DNA of 34,497 nt. It comes from Desulfarculus sp. Its GTDB lineage: Bacteria > Desulfobacterota > Desulfarculia > Desulfarculales > Desulfarculaceae. Made by a program: the position numbers and the translations under genes. The stretch is taken from the NCBI GenBank assembly GCA_016218705.1, contig JACRDC010000104.1, positions 1 through 34,497 on the forward strand, in the 5' to 3' direction. This document shows positions 7,890 through 26,165 of this stretch, in pieces. The notes under the pieces were generated by a model. It searched no databases. It saw only the letters and a list, made by a program, of their open reading frames with translations, and was not told where the DNA came from. Numbering within the stretch: the stretch's first letter is position 1; every line of letters begins with the position of its first letter.

Positions 7890-8808
7890 CGGGCTCCTCC
7901 CCTCATGATGCTTGGCAAATTGGGCGCTTGGCCCCACAGGATGCTTTTGCACAGGGTCTTGACCGCGTGCTGATAACGCAAGGGACGGGCCAAAGGCGGC
8001 CCGGGCGGGGCCTGGCCAGGACATGGCTCGTGAATTATTGCGTTTTCTCGGTTGAGGCCTGGCGGGGCCTGGTTGGGAGCGCCGCAAATAAGTTACGTCG
8101 GGGTTACCATTCAGCGCTTTTACTACCGATAGGTAGGCAACTTTACGGCGAGGGCTGGCCAGGAAAATCCGGCCCGGCCAACCTGGGCTCAAAGATTATG
8201 GGTTGGCAGGGCGTGCTTAAGTTGGCACCGGCCCCCACCGCGGGGCCGGTGGGTGCCCGTCCGAAATCAACCCCTGTTATACCAATGGGCGAGGTTAACT
8301 TGTCCGCCGCAACCGAACAAACTGTCGCTAGTTTTATTTTTAGCATTTAGCAAATATCAAATTCAATATTCCTTGCCAAACATTTAATTATCCCAATCTA
8401 TTCACACTTTGTACTGCATTGAAAACACGGTTATTACCATGATAAATGATATTAACTTTAAATACTAATCTAATCATATAATCGGCATGAAAGCTGCAAG
8501 ATTATCGTCCGCCAAGCTCTTGGTGTCGCGCCGGGAGCTAGCCAGGGGGAATGGGGGGATGATCTCTGCCGCGAGCGGTTATTATTTTTATTTATTCCGC
8601 CTTCCCTGCTTCAGACAACGCGGCCAAGGCCAGCGCCATGACTGTGGTGGTTCACGAGTTGCCGTGGAAAGGCAGTGGTGGTTTTATTGCCACCATGCCC
8701 GGAGCGTGGCGATTTCCATTGTGAGGTAAGCGATAAAATTATCTGTGTATTTCGGTGTTTAACTAAGAAGATGATATGTCTTTGACATCAGGACGGGGGG
8801 GCAATCTC
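7890..8808. other. Intergenic region with a sharp GC drop
   Basis: No gene is convincing here. The part 7890-8330 is GC-rich and includes a perfect 10-bp hairpin (CACCGGCCCC at 8226-8235 with GGGGCCGGTG at 8242-8251) and a small CTACC-GATA-GGTAG hairpin at 8123-8136. From about 8330 to 8480 the sequence is strongly AT-rich, unlike any neighbour. A further hairpin at 8671-8699 pairs GGCA..TGGTGG with CCACCA..TGCC. An 80-codon open frame at 8487-8729 lacks a ribosome site and recognisable content. The AT-rich patch suggests acquired DNA. Confidence 0.6.
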
Positions 8809-9598: not shown

Positions 9599-10396
9599 CT
9601 AACCCAGGGCCGCCCGCAGCTCCCGCGCCAGGCCGCCCACCGCCTGGACGGCCAGCTCCGGGCTGGCGGCCTCCAGCACCAGCTTGACCAGGGCCGAGCC
9701 CACGATCACGCCATCGGCCACGCCGGCCAGGGCGGCGGCTTGGCTGGGCTGGGCCACGCCGAAGCCCACGGCCAGGGGCAGGCCGGCGGCGGCCCGCGCC
9801 GTCCTGATGCCCGCCAGCACCTCGGGGGCCAGGTTGAGCCCCGCGCCGGTGACCCCGGTCATGGAGACGTAGTACAAGAACCCCGAGCAGCACTCCAACA
9901 GGCGGGGCAGGCGCTCCGGGGGCGTGGTGGGCGCGGCCATGAAGATGGTGTCCAGGCCGGCGGCGCGGGCCGCCTTGAGCCAGGGCGCCGCCTCCTCTGG
10001 CGGCAGGTCGGGCACGATGGCCCCTGAGACGCCGGCCTGCACCGCCCGCTGGGCAAAGGCCTCCAGGCCCAGGTTCAGCACCGGGTTGTAGTAGGTCATC
10101 ACCACCAGGGGGGCCTTGATGCGCCCCCGCAGGCCAGCCAGCATCTCCAGCACCCCCACGGGCGTGGCCCCGGCGTCCAGGGCGCGCTTGCTGGCCTCCT
10201 GGATCACCGGGCCGTCGGCCATGGGGTCGCTGAAGGGTATGCCTACCTCTATGACGTCGGCCCCGGCCTGGTCCAACTCCGTTAGCAGCCGGGCGGTGGT
10301 GGCCATGTCGGGCAGTCCGCCGCTCAAAAAGGGGATGAAGGCGGCGCGTCCGGCCTGGCGGGCGGCGGCGAAGGCTTGGGCAATGGCCTGGCTCAT
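9599..10396 (-). CDS. trpA: Tryptophan synthase alpha chain
   Basis: TrpA cleaves indole-glycerol phosphate to indole and glyceraldehyde 3-phosphate and passes indole to TrpB through a tunnel. The 265-aa TIM barrel has both catalytic residues in register: Glu50 in VIEVGIPF and Asp61 in MADGP. The phosphate loop GFGVAQPSQ and the active-site segment [10 protein letters not shown] are present. The ATG at 10396 overlaps the trpB stop by 4 nt (ATGA), which fixes the start even though the frame is open further upstream. It is the last gene of the trpDCFBA unit. Confidence 0.97.
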
Positions 10397-16336: not shown

Positions 16337-17239
16337 TTATAGCTCACGATGCAGGGGCCGGCCCATCACCGCCAACTCGGCCATCATGGCCGCGAATTCC
16401 TCGGGCGTCAGCGACTGCTCGCCGTCGCACAGGGCCGTCTCGGGCGAGCAGTGCACCTCCACCATCACCCCGTCGGCGCCCACGGCCATGGCCCCCCGGG
16501 CCATGGGGGCCACGAAGCGCCGGCGGCCCACGGCGTGGCTGGGGTCCACGATGATGGGCAGGTGGGTGCGCTCCTTGAGCACGCAGATGGCGCTAAGGTC
16601 GAGCGTGTTGCGCGTGGCGGTCTCGAAGGTGCGGATGCCGCGCTCGCACAAGACCACCTGGGAATTGCCCGAGGCCAGGATGTACTCGGCGCTCATCAAG
16701 AGCTCATCCAGGGTGGTCATGAGCCCGCGCTTGAGGAGTATCGGCCTTTTCACGCGGCCCAGCTTTTTTAGCAGCGAGAAGTTCTGCACGTTGCGCGCGC
16801 CCACCTGGATCATGTCGGCGTATTCCTCCACCAGGGGGATGTCGCCGGAGTCCATGACCTCGGTCACCACCGGCAGGCCCGTGGCCTCGCGGGCGATGGC
16901 CAGCAGCTTGAGCCCCTCCTCGCCCATGCCCTGGAAGCTGTAGGGCGAGGTGCGCGGCTTGAAGGCCCCGCCGCGCAACAGCGAGGCCCCGGCGGCCTTG
17001 ACCGCCGTTGCCGTGGCCACCATCTGCTCGGCGCTCTCCACCGAGCAGGGGCCGGCGATCACCGCGAAGCGCGGCCCGCCGATGGTCACGTCCCCCACGC
17101 GCACCACGGTGTCCTGGTCCTGGCTCTCGCGGCTGACCAGGTTGCACTTGGGTTTGGACCTGACGCAGGCCTGGGGCGCCGCCCCGGCCGCCATCACCGC
17201 CTCCGCTATTTCCATTCTCTCCACTCTGGCCGCTATCAT
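16337..17239 (-). CDS. aroF: DAHP synthase, short form without ACT-like domain
   Basis: This 300-aa type I-beta 3-deoxy-7-phosphoheptulonate synthase condenses phosphoenolpyruvate and erythrose 4-phosphate, the entry to the shikimate pathway. Signature segments are [54 protein letters not shown] and DPSHAVGRR, with metal ligands in the Cys, His and Glu positions. The roughly 45-residue N-terminal lead lacks the ferredoxin-like regulatory domain seen in the second copy (22790-23824). The ATG follows a strong GGGAGGGAGG. It is the first gene of the Phe/Tyr unit, behind an aromatic leader peptide. The paralogue shares long identical segments. Confidence 0.93.
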
Positions 17240-21543: not shown

Positions 21544-22793
21544 TGGAGCAACAGCCCCAGGTCGTGGCCAAAGCCGGGGTAGGAGACCGCCGCGCAGCCG
21601 GCGTCCTTGATGGCCAACTCCTGGCCGCAGAGCACCCCGGCCAGGGTGAGCGTCATGGCGATGCGGTGGTCGCCGAAGGAGTCCAGCTCCCCCGCCGGGG
21701 CCTTCAAGGGCGTGGGGCCGTTTATCACCAGGTCCTCGCCCTCTATGCTTATATCCGCGCCCATGGCCCCCAGACCCGAGGCCACGGCGGCCAGGCGGTC
21801 CGATTCCTTGACGCGCAGCTCGCCCACCTCCTTCATCACCGTGGTCCCCCGGGCCTGGGTGGCCACCAGGGCCAGGATGGGCACCTCGTCCACCAGAAGC
21901 GGTATCTCCTCGGCCCGCACCTGGCAGGCCTTCAACTCCGGCGAGTAGGCGGCCCGCACCTGGCCCCACTCCTCGGGCACCCGCCCCTGCTCCTCTATGG
22001 CCAGGTTGGCGCCCATGCGCTCCAGCACCCGCAAAAAGCCGATGCGCGTGGGGTTGAGCAGGGTGCCCTCGCTGGTCACGTCACTGCCGGGGGTTATGGC
22101 CGCGGCGCACAAAAAGAAGGCCGCCGAGGAGGCGTCACCGGGCACGCGTAGCTCCTCTGGCAGGGTGAGCTCGGAACGCTCGATGCGCCAGCCGCCGGGC
22201 TCCTGCCGGATGTTGGCCCCGCACAAGGCCAGCAGGCGCTCGCTGTGGTCGCGGCTCTTGACCGGCTCGCCCACGAAGGTGTTGCCCCCGGCCTGCACGC
22301 CGGCCAGAAGCAGGGCGCTTTTGAGTTGGGCGCTGGCCACGGGCAGGGTGTAGTCAATGCCCCTGAGCCCGCCGCCAAAGAGGCTCACCGGCGGACGGCC
22401 CCCGGGGCACTCCACCCGGGCGCCCATGAGCCTAAGCGGCGTGGCCACCCGCTCCATGGGCCGGCGGCGCAAGGACTCGTCGCCATCCAGCACGAAGCTG
22501 CCCGGCACCCCGGCCAACAGGCCCATGAGCAGGCGCAGGGTGGTGCCGGAGTTGCCGCAGTCCACGCTCGCGCCGGCGCGCAGGCGGCCCTGGGCGCCGG
22601 TCAGCCACACGCCGTCCTCGCTGAAACGCACCTCGCCGCCCAGGAGCTTGACCGCCCCCAGGGTGGAGGAGCAGTCCTGGCAGGGCGAGTAGTTGCTCAC
22701 CCGCATGCGCCCCCGGGCCAGGAGCGAGAACAGGCCGGCGCGGTGGGAGATGGACTTGTCGCCCGGCGGGGCGAAGGAACCCTTAAGCCTCAT
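21540..22793 (-). CDS. aroA: 3-phosphoshikimate 1-carboxyvinyltransferase (EPSP synthase)
   Basis: AroA adds enolpyruvate from PEP to shikimate 3-phosphate. The 417-aa protein has [18 protein letters not shown] (Lys13), [58 protein letters not shown] and [12 protein letters not shown], covering both half-domains. The SAQLK and SLRRRPM patterns resemble class II enzymes more than E. coli AroA; class assignment is inference. The ATG overlaps the stop of the preceding aroF by 4 nt. Confidence 0.96.
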
Positions 22794-23824
22794 GGCCGCA
22801 CCACCTGACGCCCCACGGCGTTAGCCACCTTCTCCAGGTCGCCCATGAGCTGGGCAAAAGCCGGCACGGTCAGCGACTGGCGGCCGTCGGACAGCGCCTT
22901 GTCCGGCTGGGGATGAACTTCCACGATCACGCCGTCGGCGCCGGCGGCCACGGCGGCGCAGGCCAGGGCCGGCACCAGCTCGCGCTTGCCGGCGGCGTGG
23001 CTGGGGTCCACCACCACCGGCAGGTGGGTGTGCTGTTTGAGTACCGGCACCGCCGAGATGTCCAGGGTGTTGCGGGTCTCGGTCTCGAAGGTGCGAATGC
23101 CCCGCTCGCAGAGGATGACCTGCCAGTTGCCCCGGGCCAGGATGTACTCCGCCGAGAGCAGAAGCTCCTTGATGGTGGCCATCATGCCGCGTTTTAAGAG
23201 CACCGGCCGGTCCACGTCGCCCACGGCCTCCAGGAGCGCGAAGTTTTGCATGTTGCGGGCGCCGATCTGCAAGACGTCGGCGTATTTGGCCACCAGGGGC
23301 ACGTCCGAGGCCCTAAGGACCTCGGTGACCACCGGCAGGCCGGTGATCTCCCGGGCCTCGGCCATGATCTTGAGCCCCTCCTCGCCCAGGCCCCTGAAGG
23401 AATAGGGCGAGGTGCGCGGCTTGAAAGCCCCGCCGCGCAAGACGCCGGCCCCCAGGGGGGCCAGGGCCCGGGCCACCTCCAGGTAGCCCTCGCGCGACTC
23501 CACGGCGCAGGGACCGGCCATGACCACCAATTGGCCGTTGCCGATGGTCAGGTTGCCCAGCTTGAAGGACGTGGGCTCCTGGCGGAAGTCGCGGGAGACC
23601 AGCTTCCAGGACTTCTCGAAGCTCTCGATCTCCTCCACGCCCTCCATGATCGCCACCTTTGCCATGATCTCCTCGGCCAGGGGCCGGCTGATCTCCTCCA
23701 CCACCCCCAGGACCACCCGGGAGCCGGGGGAGACCACCCGGGCCTGTAGGCCATAGCCCCTTAGGGCCGCGATGACCTGGGCCACCTCCCCCTTCTGACA
23801 TCCATCTCGCATGGCGATTACCAT
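22790..23824 (-). CDS. aroF: DAHP synthase with N-terminal ferredoxin-like regulatory domain
   Basis: The second DAHP synthase (344 aa) begins with a roughly 75-residue ferredoxin/ACT-like domain ([18 protein letters not shown] to VEEIESFEK), as in the Thermotoga-type enzyme, where it mediates Tyr or Phe inhibition. The catalytic barrel then shows [54 protein letters not shown] and [15 protein letters not shown] about 8 nt before the ATG at 23824 decides the start. It follows trpG by 81 nt. Being in the trpE-led unit, it supplies the common pathway and has allosteric control that the other copy lacks. Confidence 0.94.
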
Positions 23825-23905
23825 ATCCGCGCCTCCCGCGCTAGTGGCTATGCGCCTGATTTTTTTGAAACATCGTTCCGAAATCCAACACAAACGGCGC
23901 GCCCC

Positions 23906-25875: not shown

Positions 25876-25900
25876 GCTTGCATCGCCTTTCTGCGCCCAA

Positions 25901-25932
25901 AAAATGAAAAACCCACCGCATGGTGCGGTGGG
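25901..25932 (-). terminator. Attenuator terminator before trpE
   Basis: CCCACCGC pairs with GCGGTGGG (minus strand 25932 to 25912; nine perfect pairs if the A-T is included), followed by TTTTTCATTTTTT. This is a strong intrinsic terminator 37 nt before the trpE ATG and downstream of a leader peptide with aromatic codons. Confidence 0.88.
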
Positions 25933-25990
25933 CTCGCGGCCGGCTGTCTGCTTTAGTGGTTAGCTAAGGCGTTACCCGCACGAGCCCACC
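25927..25990 (-). promoter_or_regulatory. Antiterminator pairing of the trpE leader
   Basis: GGTGGGCTCG (minus strand, 25981-25990), just after the Trp codons inside the leader peptide, is an exact 10-nt complement of CGAGCCCACC (25927-25936). The latter contains the upstream arm of the terminator. The two structures cannot coexist, giving the 2:3 versus 3:4 switch of classical attenuation. Confidence 0.8.
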
Positions 25991-26089
25991 CCCGGGCCAG
26001 CGCCACCAATAAAAGCCGCCCGCGCAGACAACGGCCAAAAGCTGGCCGGCGGCCTGGGCGGGGGGGGTGGTGCTGGTCTTAGGGGTCAT
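25964..26089 (-). CDS. trpL: Aromatic leader peptide of trpE-aroQ (41 aa, FYWWRW)
   Basis: The frame starts MTPKTSTTPP and carries Phe26-Tyr27-Trp28-Trp29-Arg30-Trp31 before PGGGLVRVTP and a stop. AGGTGA lies about 9 nt before the ATG. The terminator and antiterminator described here follow, so this is the leader peptide of an attenuator. Unlike the usual trp leader, it places Phe and Tyr codons immediately before the Trp run. The unit it controls makes chorismate for all three aromatic amino acids, so sensing of all three is a reasonable inference. A nine-C run in codons 8-11 could be prone to slippage. Confidence 0.87.
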   Translation of the reverse strand: MTPKTSTTPPAQAAGQLLAVVCAGGFYWWRWPGGGLVRVTP

Positions 26090-26119
26090 GGGCTCGCTTC
26101 ACCTGGTTCGGTTTAGGCG

Positions 26120-26148
26120 AGTTTGGCCGGCGGCCAAGGCTTTGTCAA
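26120..26148 (-). promoter_or_regulatory. Promoter of the trpE-aroQ unit
   Basis: A perfect -35 TTGACA (26143-26148) is followed after 17 nt by CAAACT (26120-26125), a poor -10. The start point would be about 25 nt before the leader ATG. The weak -10 suggests dependence on another factor or a different exact box. Confidence 0.5.
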
Positions 26149-26152
26149 GGGG

Positions 26153-26165
26153 TTTTTGTATACAA
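26153..26165 (-). promoter_or_regulatory. TTGTATACAA palindrome upstream of the trpE promoter
   Basis: TTGTATACAA (26156-26165) is a perfect 10-bp palindrome ending 7 nt upstream of the -35 box. Twelve bases (plus-strand TTTTTGTATACA) recur at the trpL/trpD promoter, in the same orientation relative to the operon it precedes. A shared regulator is inferred. Confidence 0.45.

Follow-up and report, generated by a model that had tools for sequence, protein, structure and literature searches.

The analysed stretch of 34,497 nt (hereafter the window) belongs to the 4.2 Mb genome (G000) of a bacterium resembling sulfate reducers, whose nearest named relatives are Desulfarculus/Desulfarculaceae MAGs. 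Sixteen genes in a single minus-strand run encode the entire route to Phe, Tyr and Trp (Table 1), and this gene order is repeated in relatives. An earlier note on this DNA had recognised the genes from trpE to aroQ as one unit, which gene annotation confirmed, but had ended the unit at aroQ, whereas the run continues through aroF2-pheA-tyrA-trpDCFBA to approximately position 9,600. The two DAHP synthases of the window (22793-23893 and 16340-17239, both minus strand) also differ in their alignment to NF006421, with an extra N-terminal part found in the first only that is possibly a feedback domain. Three short open reading frames with the appearance of leader peptides, referred to here as leaders A, B and C, precede successive blocks of this gene run.

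Table 1. Genes and leader elements of the aromatic amino acid run, in order of reading along the minus strand of the window.
Feature	Position	Strand	Description
Leader A promoter-like site (TTGACA, 17 nt, CAAACT)	26148-26120	minus	read from sequence; same place in relatives
Leader A ORF (41 codons, FYWWRW)	26089-25964	minus	before trpE; predicted Phe+Tyr+Trp leader peptide
Leader A control codons (TTT TAT TGG TGG CGC TGG)	26014-25997	minus	read from sequence
Leader A antiterminator 5' strand GGTGGGCTCG	25990-25981	minus	inside leader ORF; 10 perfect pairs
Leader A antiterminator 3' strand CGAGCCCACC	25936-25927	minus	overlaps terminator 5' arm
Leader A intrinsic terminator and U tract	25932-25901	minus	hairpin CCCACCGCAccaTGCGGTGGG at 25932-25912, then TTTTTCATTTTTT
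trpE	25875-24481	minus	NCBIfam
trpG-aroF-aroA-aroE-aroKB-aroC-aroQ	24484-17648	minus	NCBIfam (aroK-aroB fused; aroF = DAHP synthase)
Leader B promoter-like site (TTGACA, 17 nt, TTTAGT)	17578-17550	minus	read from sequence
Leader B ORF (38 codons), AAYFYFSFYYFTAV (YFYFSFYYF)	17514-17398	minus	between aroQ and aroF2; predicted Phe/Tyr leader peptide
Leader B antiterminator 5' strand GCCGTCTGCCC	17427-17417	minus	
Leader B antiterminator 3' strand GGGCAGACGGC	17361-17351	minus	inside terminator
Leader B terminator GGCCATGGGC...GCCCATGGCC	17367-17330	minus	T run interrupted in window
Second hairpin after leader B terminator	17317-17291	minus	
aroF2 (second DAHP synthase)-pheA-tyrA	17239-14264	minus	NCBIfam
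Leader C ORF (24 codons, SWRYWRWQTAW)	14211-14137	minus	between tyrA and trpD; Trp-rich
Leader C terminator	14108-14074	minus	read from sequence
trpD-trpC-trpF-trpB-trpA	14103-9599	minus	start codons approximate

The leader A ORF translates as MTPKTSTTPPAQAAGQLLAVVCAGGFYWWRWPGGGLVRVTP* (stop at end), has a Shine-Dalgarno-like AGGTGA upstream of its ATG and carries three Trp codons, one Phe codon and one Tyr codon in its control run. The FYWWRW leader peptide upstream of trpE, the 10-nt antiterminator formed by 25981-25990 with 25927-25936 and the terminator at 25912-25932 had all been described in the earlier note, and our analysis recovered each of them in place, with perfect antiterminator pairing and a T run following the terminator hairpin. 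Leader A combines a translatable ORF, clustered codons for pathway end products and a terminator ahead of the first gene. Aromatic runs of this density are rare in the window, as at least five Phe, Tyr or Trp residues in six codons occurred at only three places when 61,764 six-codon windows in all six frames of the 34.5 kb were examined: leader A, leader B (17457) and position 8580 on the plus strand. The run at 8580 had no recognisable leader or terminator context and was rejected as a leader. Dinucleotide shuffles of positions 25880-26160 produced an ORF with such a run holding all three residues in 2 of 10,000 cases, and the 211-nt leader A RNA folded better than all 200 of its shuffled versions (z -3.5).

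Promoter-like sites precede the leaders, where leaders A and B share the -35-like hexamer TTGACA and leader C has TTGACG; as promoter elements, the hexamers of the window are weak. The -10 hexamer of leader A is itself weak and this site was absent from the output of a consensus scan, while relatives carry TTGACA-16/17-GATACT at the same position. A perfect palindrome, TTGTATACAAA, is located at 26165-26155 (minus strand), just 5' of the leader A -35 hexamer, and GTATAC motifs resembling it were seen near leaders in relatives; this 11-mer is present only once in the genome and no claim of a regulon operator is made for it.

Relatives were located by TrpE searches among the 63 genomes of the class and the regions upstream of trpE were read. 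All 17 trpE leaders from Desulfarculaceae and its sister family (families f1 and f6) retained the short ORF, and 15 of these 17 had Phe, Tyr and Trp together near the predicted stall site. The earlier note had proposed loss of the Phe and Tyr codons in close relatives as a check on its idea, and this comparison showed them to be kept in those 15 leaders. Stall-site runs in these families included FYWWRW (three leaders), FFSYYWWSS, FFGYYWWWR, FGFYWWWR, WFYWWR-types, FTAYFWWWW, FFYFWW and RFYFWW, as well as WLYWWR in G017, where Phe is located three codons 5' of the run. Synonymous changes between TTT and TTC and between TAT and TAC were found among these leaders, indicating that the residue is kept rather than the nucleotide string. 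Within the nine codons ending at the last Trp, Phe accounted for 27 of 153 codons in comparison to 12 of 600 in the rest of the peptides (approximately 9-fold enrichment), and Tyr for 17 of 153 in comparison to 1 of 600 (approximately 67-fold), with Fisher p values near 1e-11 for each residue that are only indicative as the sequences are related.

The genes located behind trpE leaders differ along with their codons. In the neighbouring families f3, f4 and f5, trpE leaders contained Trp only (NNWWWP, WWWWQ, GGWWWR), and in each case where the operon could be followed for a sufficient distance the unit was trpEGDCFBA with no aro or phe/tyr genes. Leaders with all three residues formed one supported clade in the TrpE tree, within which Phe and Tyr were lost separately in G005 and G007. 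In G007 (one contig), the operon has separated into three units. A Trp-only leader precedes trpEG-aroFAE-KB-C-Q, the far-off aroF2-pheA-tyrA unit has a Phe/Tyr leader of its own (YYFSYFYF), and the leader of trpDCFBA carries Trp (WRNWRVRW). The genome of G005, a close relative, is 54% complete, and the contig concerned breaks off inside aroE. In the 97%-complete congener G002, a search for the trpE ortholog did not find it, and pheA, tyrA and trpD-A were located on short contigs.

Leader B, with the full peptide MGSGKLNRIMGTGNQPGAAYFYFSFYYFTAVCPVPGEV, has a counterpart rich in Phe and Tyr before aroF2, or before the unit headed by aroF2, in every Desulfarculia genome read. The codons of its control run were TTT, TTC, TAT or TAC (TWY) in 135 of 146 cases, the rest being the small spacers AGC, GGC and AAC, and Phe and Tyr swap freely within the run. 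Trp was found inside the control run in none of the 17 Desulfarculia B leaders measured, and G020, which lies outside those 17, does have a Trp. Leader C (MLLSTSWRYWRWQTAWGRPLPLEV) always has Trp in relatives at its site, its Tyr position is variable (Y, W, N or F), and 8 of 14 genomes have two such leaders in tandem.

Leader A could also be read as an ordinary Trp attenuator in which the Trp codons alone count, those for Phe and Tyr being carried along as passengers or only tuning the approach of the ribosome. This reading would agree with Trp being the sole residue found in every trpE leader, G005 and G007 included, and with the three Trp codons of leader A against one each for Phe and Tyr, and it draws further strength from the F-Y-F leader of Corynebacterium glutamicum, which gives no response to Tyr (PMC11802643). 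As leader A has just one codon each for Phe and Tyr, that precedent indicates that one Tyr codon may not suffice for a response. The enrichment of Phe and Tyr at the stall site and their retention through synonymous changes nevertheless argue against passengers, as do the association of Trp-only leaders with trp-only operons and the clear Phe/Tyr runs in the neighbouring leaders of the same operon, so that we regard a purely Trp-responsive leader as unlikely. Comparison of relatives supports well a pan-aromatic role for the Phe and Tyr codons of leader A, with a response to each amino acid predicted.

A second alternative is that leader A encodes a functional small peptide or an arrest peptide, which acts via the ribosome tunnel or in trans rather than by codon supply. 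Leader peptides such as peTrpL are able to act in trans (PMC7298713). Known examples of action through the nascent chain include TnaC. Residues preceding the control run were not conserved between genera, and the free exchange of Phe and Tyr in the leader B run fits sensing of codon supply and not a sequence-specific arrest, making an active peptide very improbable here.

RNA structure was compared in an alignment of 16 A leaders, and the antiterminator was paired in 81.7% of cells in comparison to 35-49% when its partners were slid, with a covariation of 0.156 against 0.099 in shuffles. The leader A terminator was paired in 95.8% of cells across relatives with a covariation of 0.222 that was reached in none of 500 shuffles. 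Leader B gave a similar result for its antiterminator (89.5% paired in comparison to 30-40%; covariation 0.127 in comparison to 0.085). Sequence conservation in the leader A region was confined to the control codons, antiterminator strands and terminator, and an Rfam search of leader A returned no family at gathering score and nothing relevant at a relaxed E-value. Both results speak against control of the terminator by a ligand-binding riboswitch, T-box or RNA-binding protein with an incidental ORF, a possibility for which the presence of a terminator was the only support found and which we consider barely credible.

The position of the antiterminator is also fixed relative to the control codons. 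Its 5' strand is located within the leader A ORF. In nearly all leaders it begins 5-13 nt 3' of the final Trp codon in the control run, and 12-23 nt separate its end from the stop codon; the distance from the last aromatic codon to the conserved core of the antiterminator is 8-16 nt in leader A and 9 nt in 17 of 17 B leaders. When a control codon is placed in the A site, the leader A antiterminator starts 8-35 nt downstream, so a ribosome held at the codon for Phe, for Tyr or for one of the first Trp residues would be expected to leave the strand free. The footprint of a ribosome at the last Trp or at the stop codon would cover part of the antiterminator strand, and the least permissive position in leader A of the window is the final Trp of WWRW, at +9. 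A complementary stretch near the start codon, as for a classical 1:2 helix, appeared when the leader A RNA of the window was folded without constraints. Duplex energies of region 1 with region 2 in relatives, compared with shuffled 5' segments, gave z values near zero for leader A and weakly negative values in most B leaders, and this helix was left out of our claim as it had no support across relatives.

Taken together, it is likely that leader A is a ribosome-mediated attenuator for all three aromatic amino acids and the first of three in series, whose codon sets follow the end products served by the downstream genes. From the arrangement of codons and helices we infer translation of the leader, in which a ribosome would stall at FYWWRW when awaiting tRNA charged with Phe, Tyr or Trp and would free the antiterminator strand just downstream. 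The freed strand would pair with the 5' arm of the terminator, excluding the terminator and permitting transcription to continue through trpE and the genes of the common pathway. A ribosome reaching the end of the peptide would cover, or would already have passed, the antiterminator strand, allowing the terminator to form and transcription to stop near 25901. Leader A (Phe, Tyr and Trp) would in this way serve the common pathway and trpEG, leader B (Phe and Tyr) aroF2-pheA-tyrA and leader C (mainly Trp) trpDCFBA, the amino acids represented in each leader being retained, acquired or lost in line with the end products that its downstream genes serve. Such an arrangement probably lets the cell regulate the shared steps and the individual branches of the pathway independently of one another.

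The distribution of such leaders beyond this class was surveyed with R1, a covariance model built from leader B alone and without any information on downstream genes. At a threshold of E<=0.01, R1 matched 198 of 395 genomes of the phylum, although these E-values are rough and the weakest matches may be due to chance. Among 65 matches read outside Desulfarculaceae, the leader ORF was rich in Phe and Tyr in all but one, and nearly all were located directly 5' of an AroF-type DAHP synthase, type I DAHP synthase or ADTH synthase gene. Weak matches of model R2 (below approximately 40 bits) mostly fitted the generic terminator part of the model alone and were ignored.

Trp codons varied in these leaders with gene context. 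DAHP synthase-aroKB units, which belong to the common pathway, had Trp as well in 17 of 19 leaders, and DAHP synthase-pheA units outside Desulfarculaceae had Trp in 2 of 5. Trp was found in 9 of 14 leaders where the AroF-type DAHP synthase is present as a single copy in comparison to 1 of 9 with two or more copies (p 0.03, not corrected for phylogeny and with exceptions); the exceptions to the rule for DAHP synthase units are G323, G331, G403 and G021, which lack Trp, and G379, which has it. The two-tier layout is repeated in family f61, where G161 and G379 have no DAHP synthase in the first block, FLFYWW before trpE and YFYFWRYYY or YFYFWRFYYF before aroF2, while G432, with two DAHP synthases, has DYYYGWWW and RFYGYFYYYF. 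The aroF-trpEGDCFBA units of G243 and G219 are preceded by FWWCWWWC.

Several further leaders were observed in this survey. An extra DAHP synthase gene in genus g4 (L206-L209: G015:C73, G012:C28, G008:C6 and G014:C1:364588) is preceded by Tyr-rich leaders such as YYYYYAP and GYYYYYAPA, which are candidate Tyr-sensing attenuators. ADTH synthase provides an alternative entry to the shikimate pathway, and its genes in other families have the same kind of Phe/Tyr(/Trp) leader (L124, L127, L128, L135, L168, L170-L172, L174, L180, L182, L186, L194 and L195). At L181 (G216:C78), an ORF rich in Phe and Tyr (NNYFVYYFFGF) precedes a pyridoxal-phosphate aminotransferase gene.

Like trpL of E. coli, C. 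glutamicum and Streptomyces, leader A is a short ORF with Trp codons 5' of trpE, with mutually exclusive antiterminator and terminator helices. Known trp leaders sense Trp alone, whereas leader A adds Phe and Tyr codons (FYWWRW in the window; all three residues in 15 of 17 relatives) and so departs from the Trp-only composition of the classical type. It differs further in having its antiterminator strand inside the ORF approximately 10 nt past the last Trp, in having no evident 1:2 helix and in preceding a unit that covers the whole aromatic pathway. Single leaders with codons for several end products of a shared pathway are found before E. coli ilvGMEDA, ilvBN and thr; the principle is the same, but these concern branched-chain amino acids or Thr/Ile, with one leader per operon in comparison to three matched leaders in series. 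The E. coli leaders of pheA (pheL) and pheST are Phe-codon attenuators of aromatic genes that each serve a single amino acid, with no Tyr or Trp.

The closest experimental analogue of leader B is the C. glutamicum aroR leader, a Phe-Tyr-Phe attenuator before aroF in a DAHP synthase operon that responds to limitation of Phe but not of Tyr (Neshat et al. 2014, as summarised in the review PMC11802643); in contrast to the leaders described here it is actinobacterial, has no Trp codon and has no tiered layout. The uORFC-13-1 motif 5' of aroF in Acholeplasma comprises a terminator and a predicted leader ORF containing Phe codon(s), and is confined to Acholeplasma and environmental sequences and to Phe only as described (PMC8632094). 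Attenuators have been predicted before several supraoperons, among them the aromatic one (aroA'-aroB'-...-trp) of the sulfate reducer Desulfovibrio vulgaris (Merino database, cited in PMC1173090). The D. vulgaris case has a different gene order and a single attenuator, and the passages concerning it in PMC1173090 give no leader peptide or codon content. A search of the literature accessible without subscription found no report of a leader with Phe, Tyr and Trp or of matched leaders in series. Leader-peptide attenuation as a mechanism is already known, and the pan-aromatic leader and tiered layout appear undescribed in the searchable literature.

On balance, we favour the wider view that these leaders belong to an attenuator family that governs aromatic biosynthesis across the Desulfobacterota-type phylum, whose codon sets (Phe+Tyr+Trp, Phe+Tyr, Trp or mainly Tyr) are rewritten in evolution to suit whatever end products the downstream genes serve, and that the three in series here give separate control of the common pathway, the Phe/Tyr branch and the Trp branch inside a single transcription run. 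If true, leader A would be the first described leader in the searchable literature to read all three aromatic amino acids, and it would be a natural case in which the inputs of a regulator are legible in its codons and can be set against its target genes. As layouts differ by family (split operons, one or two DAHP synthases, trp-only units), the relationship between regulation and operon rearrangement becomes testable. This outcome would also annotate many small ORFs that a large phylum carries 5' of its DAHP or ADTH synthase genes, and the leaders may serve directly as sensors of aromatic amino acids, singly or in combination.
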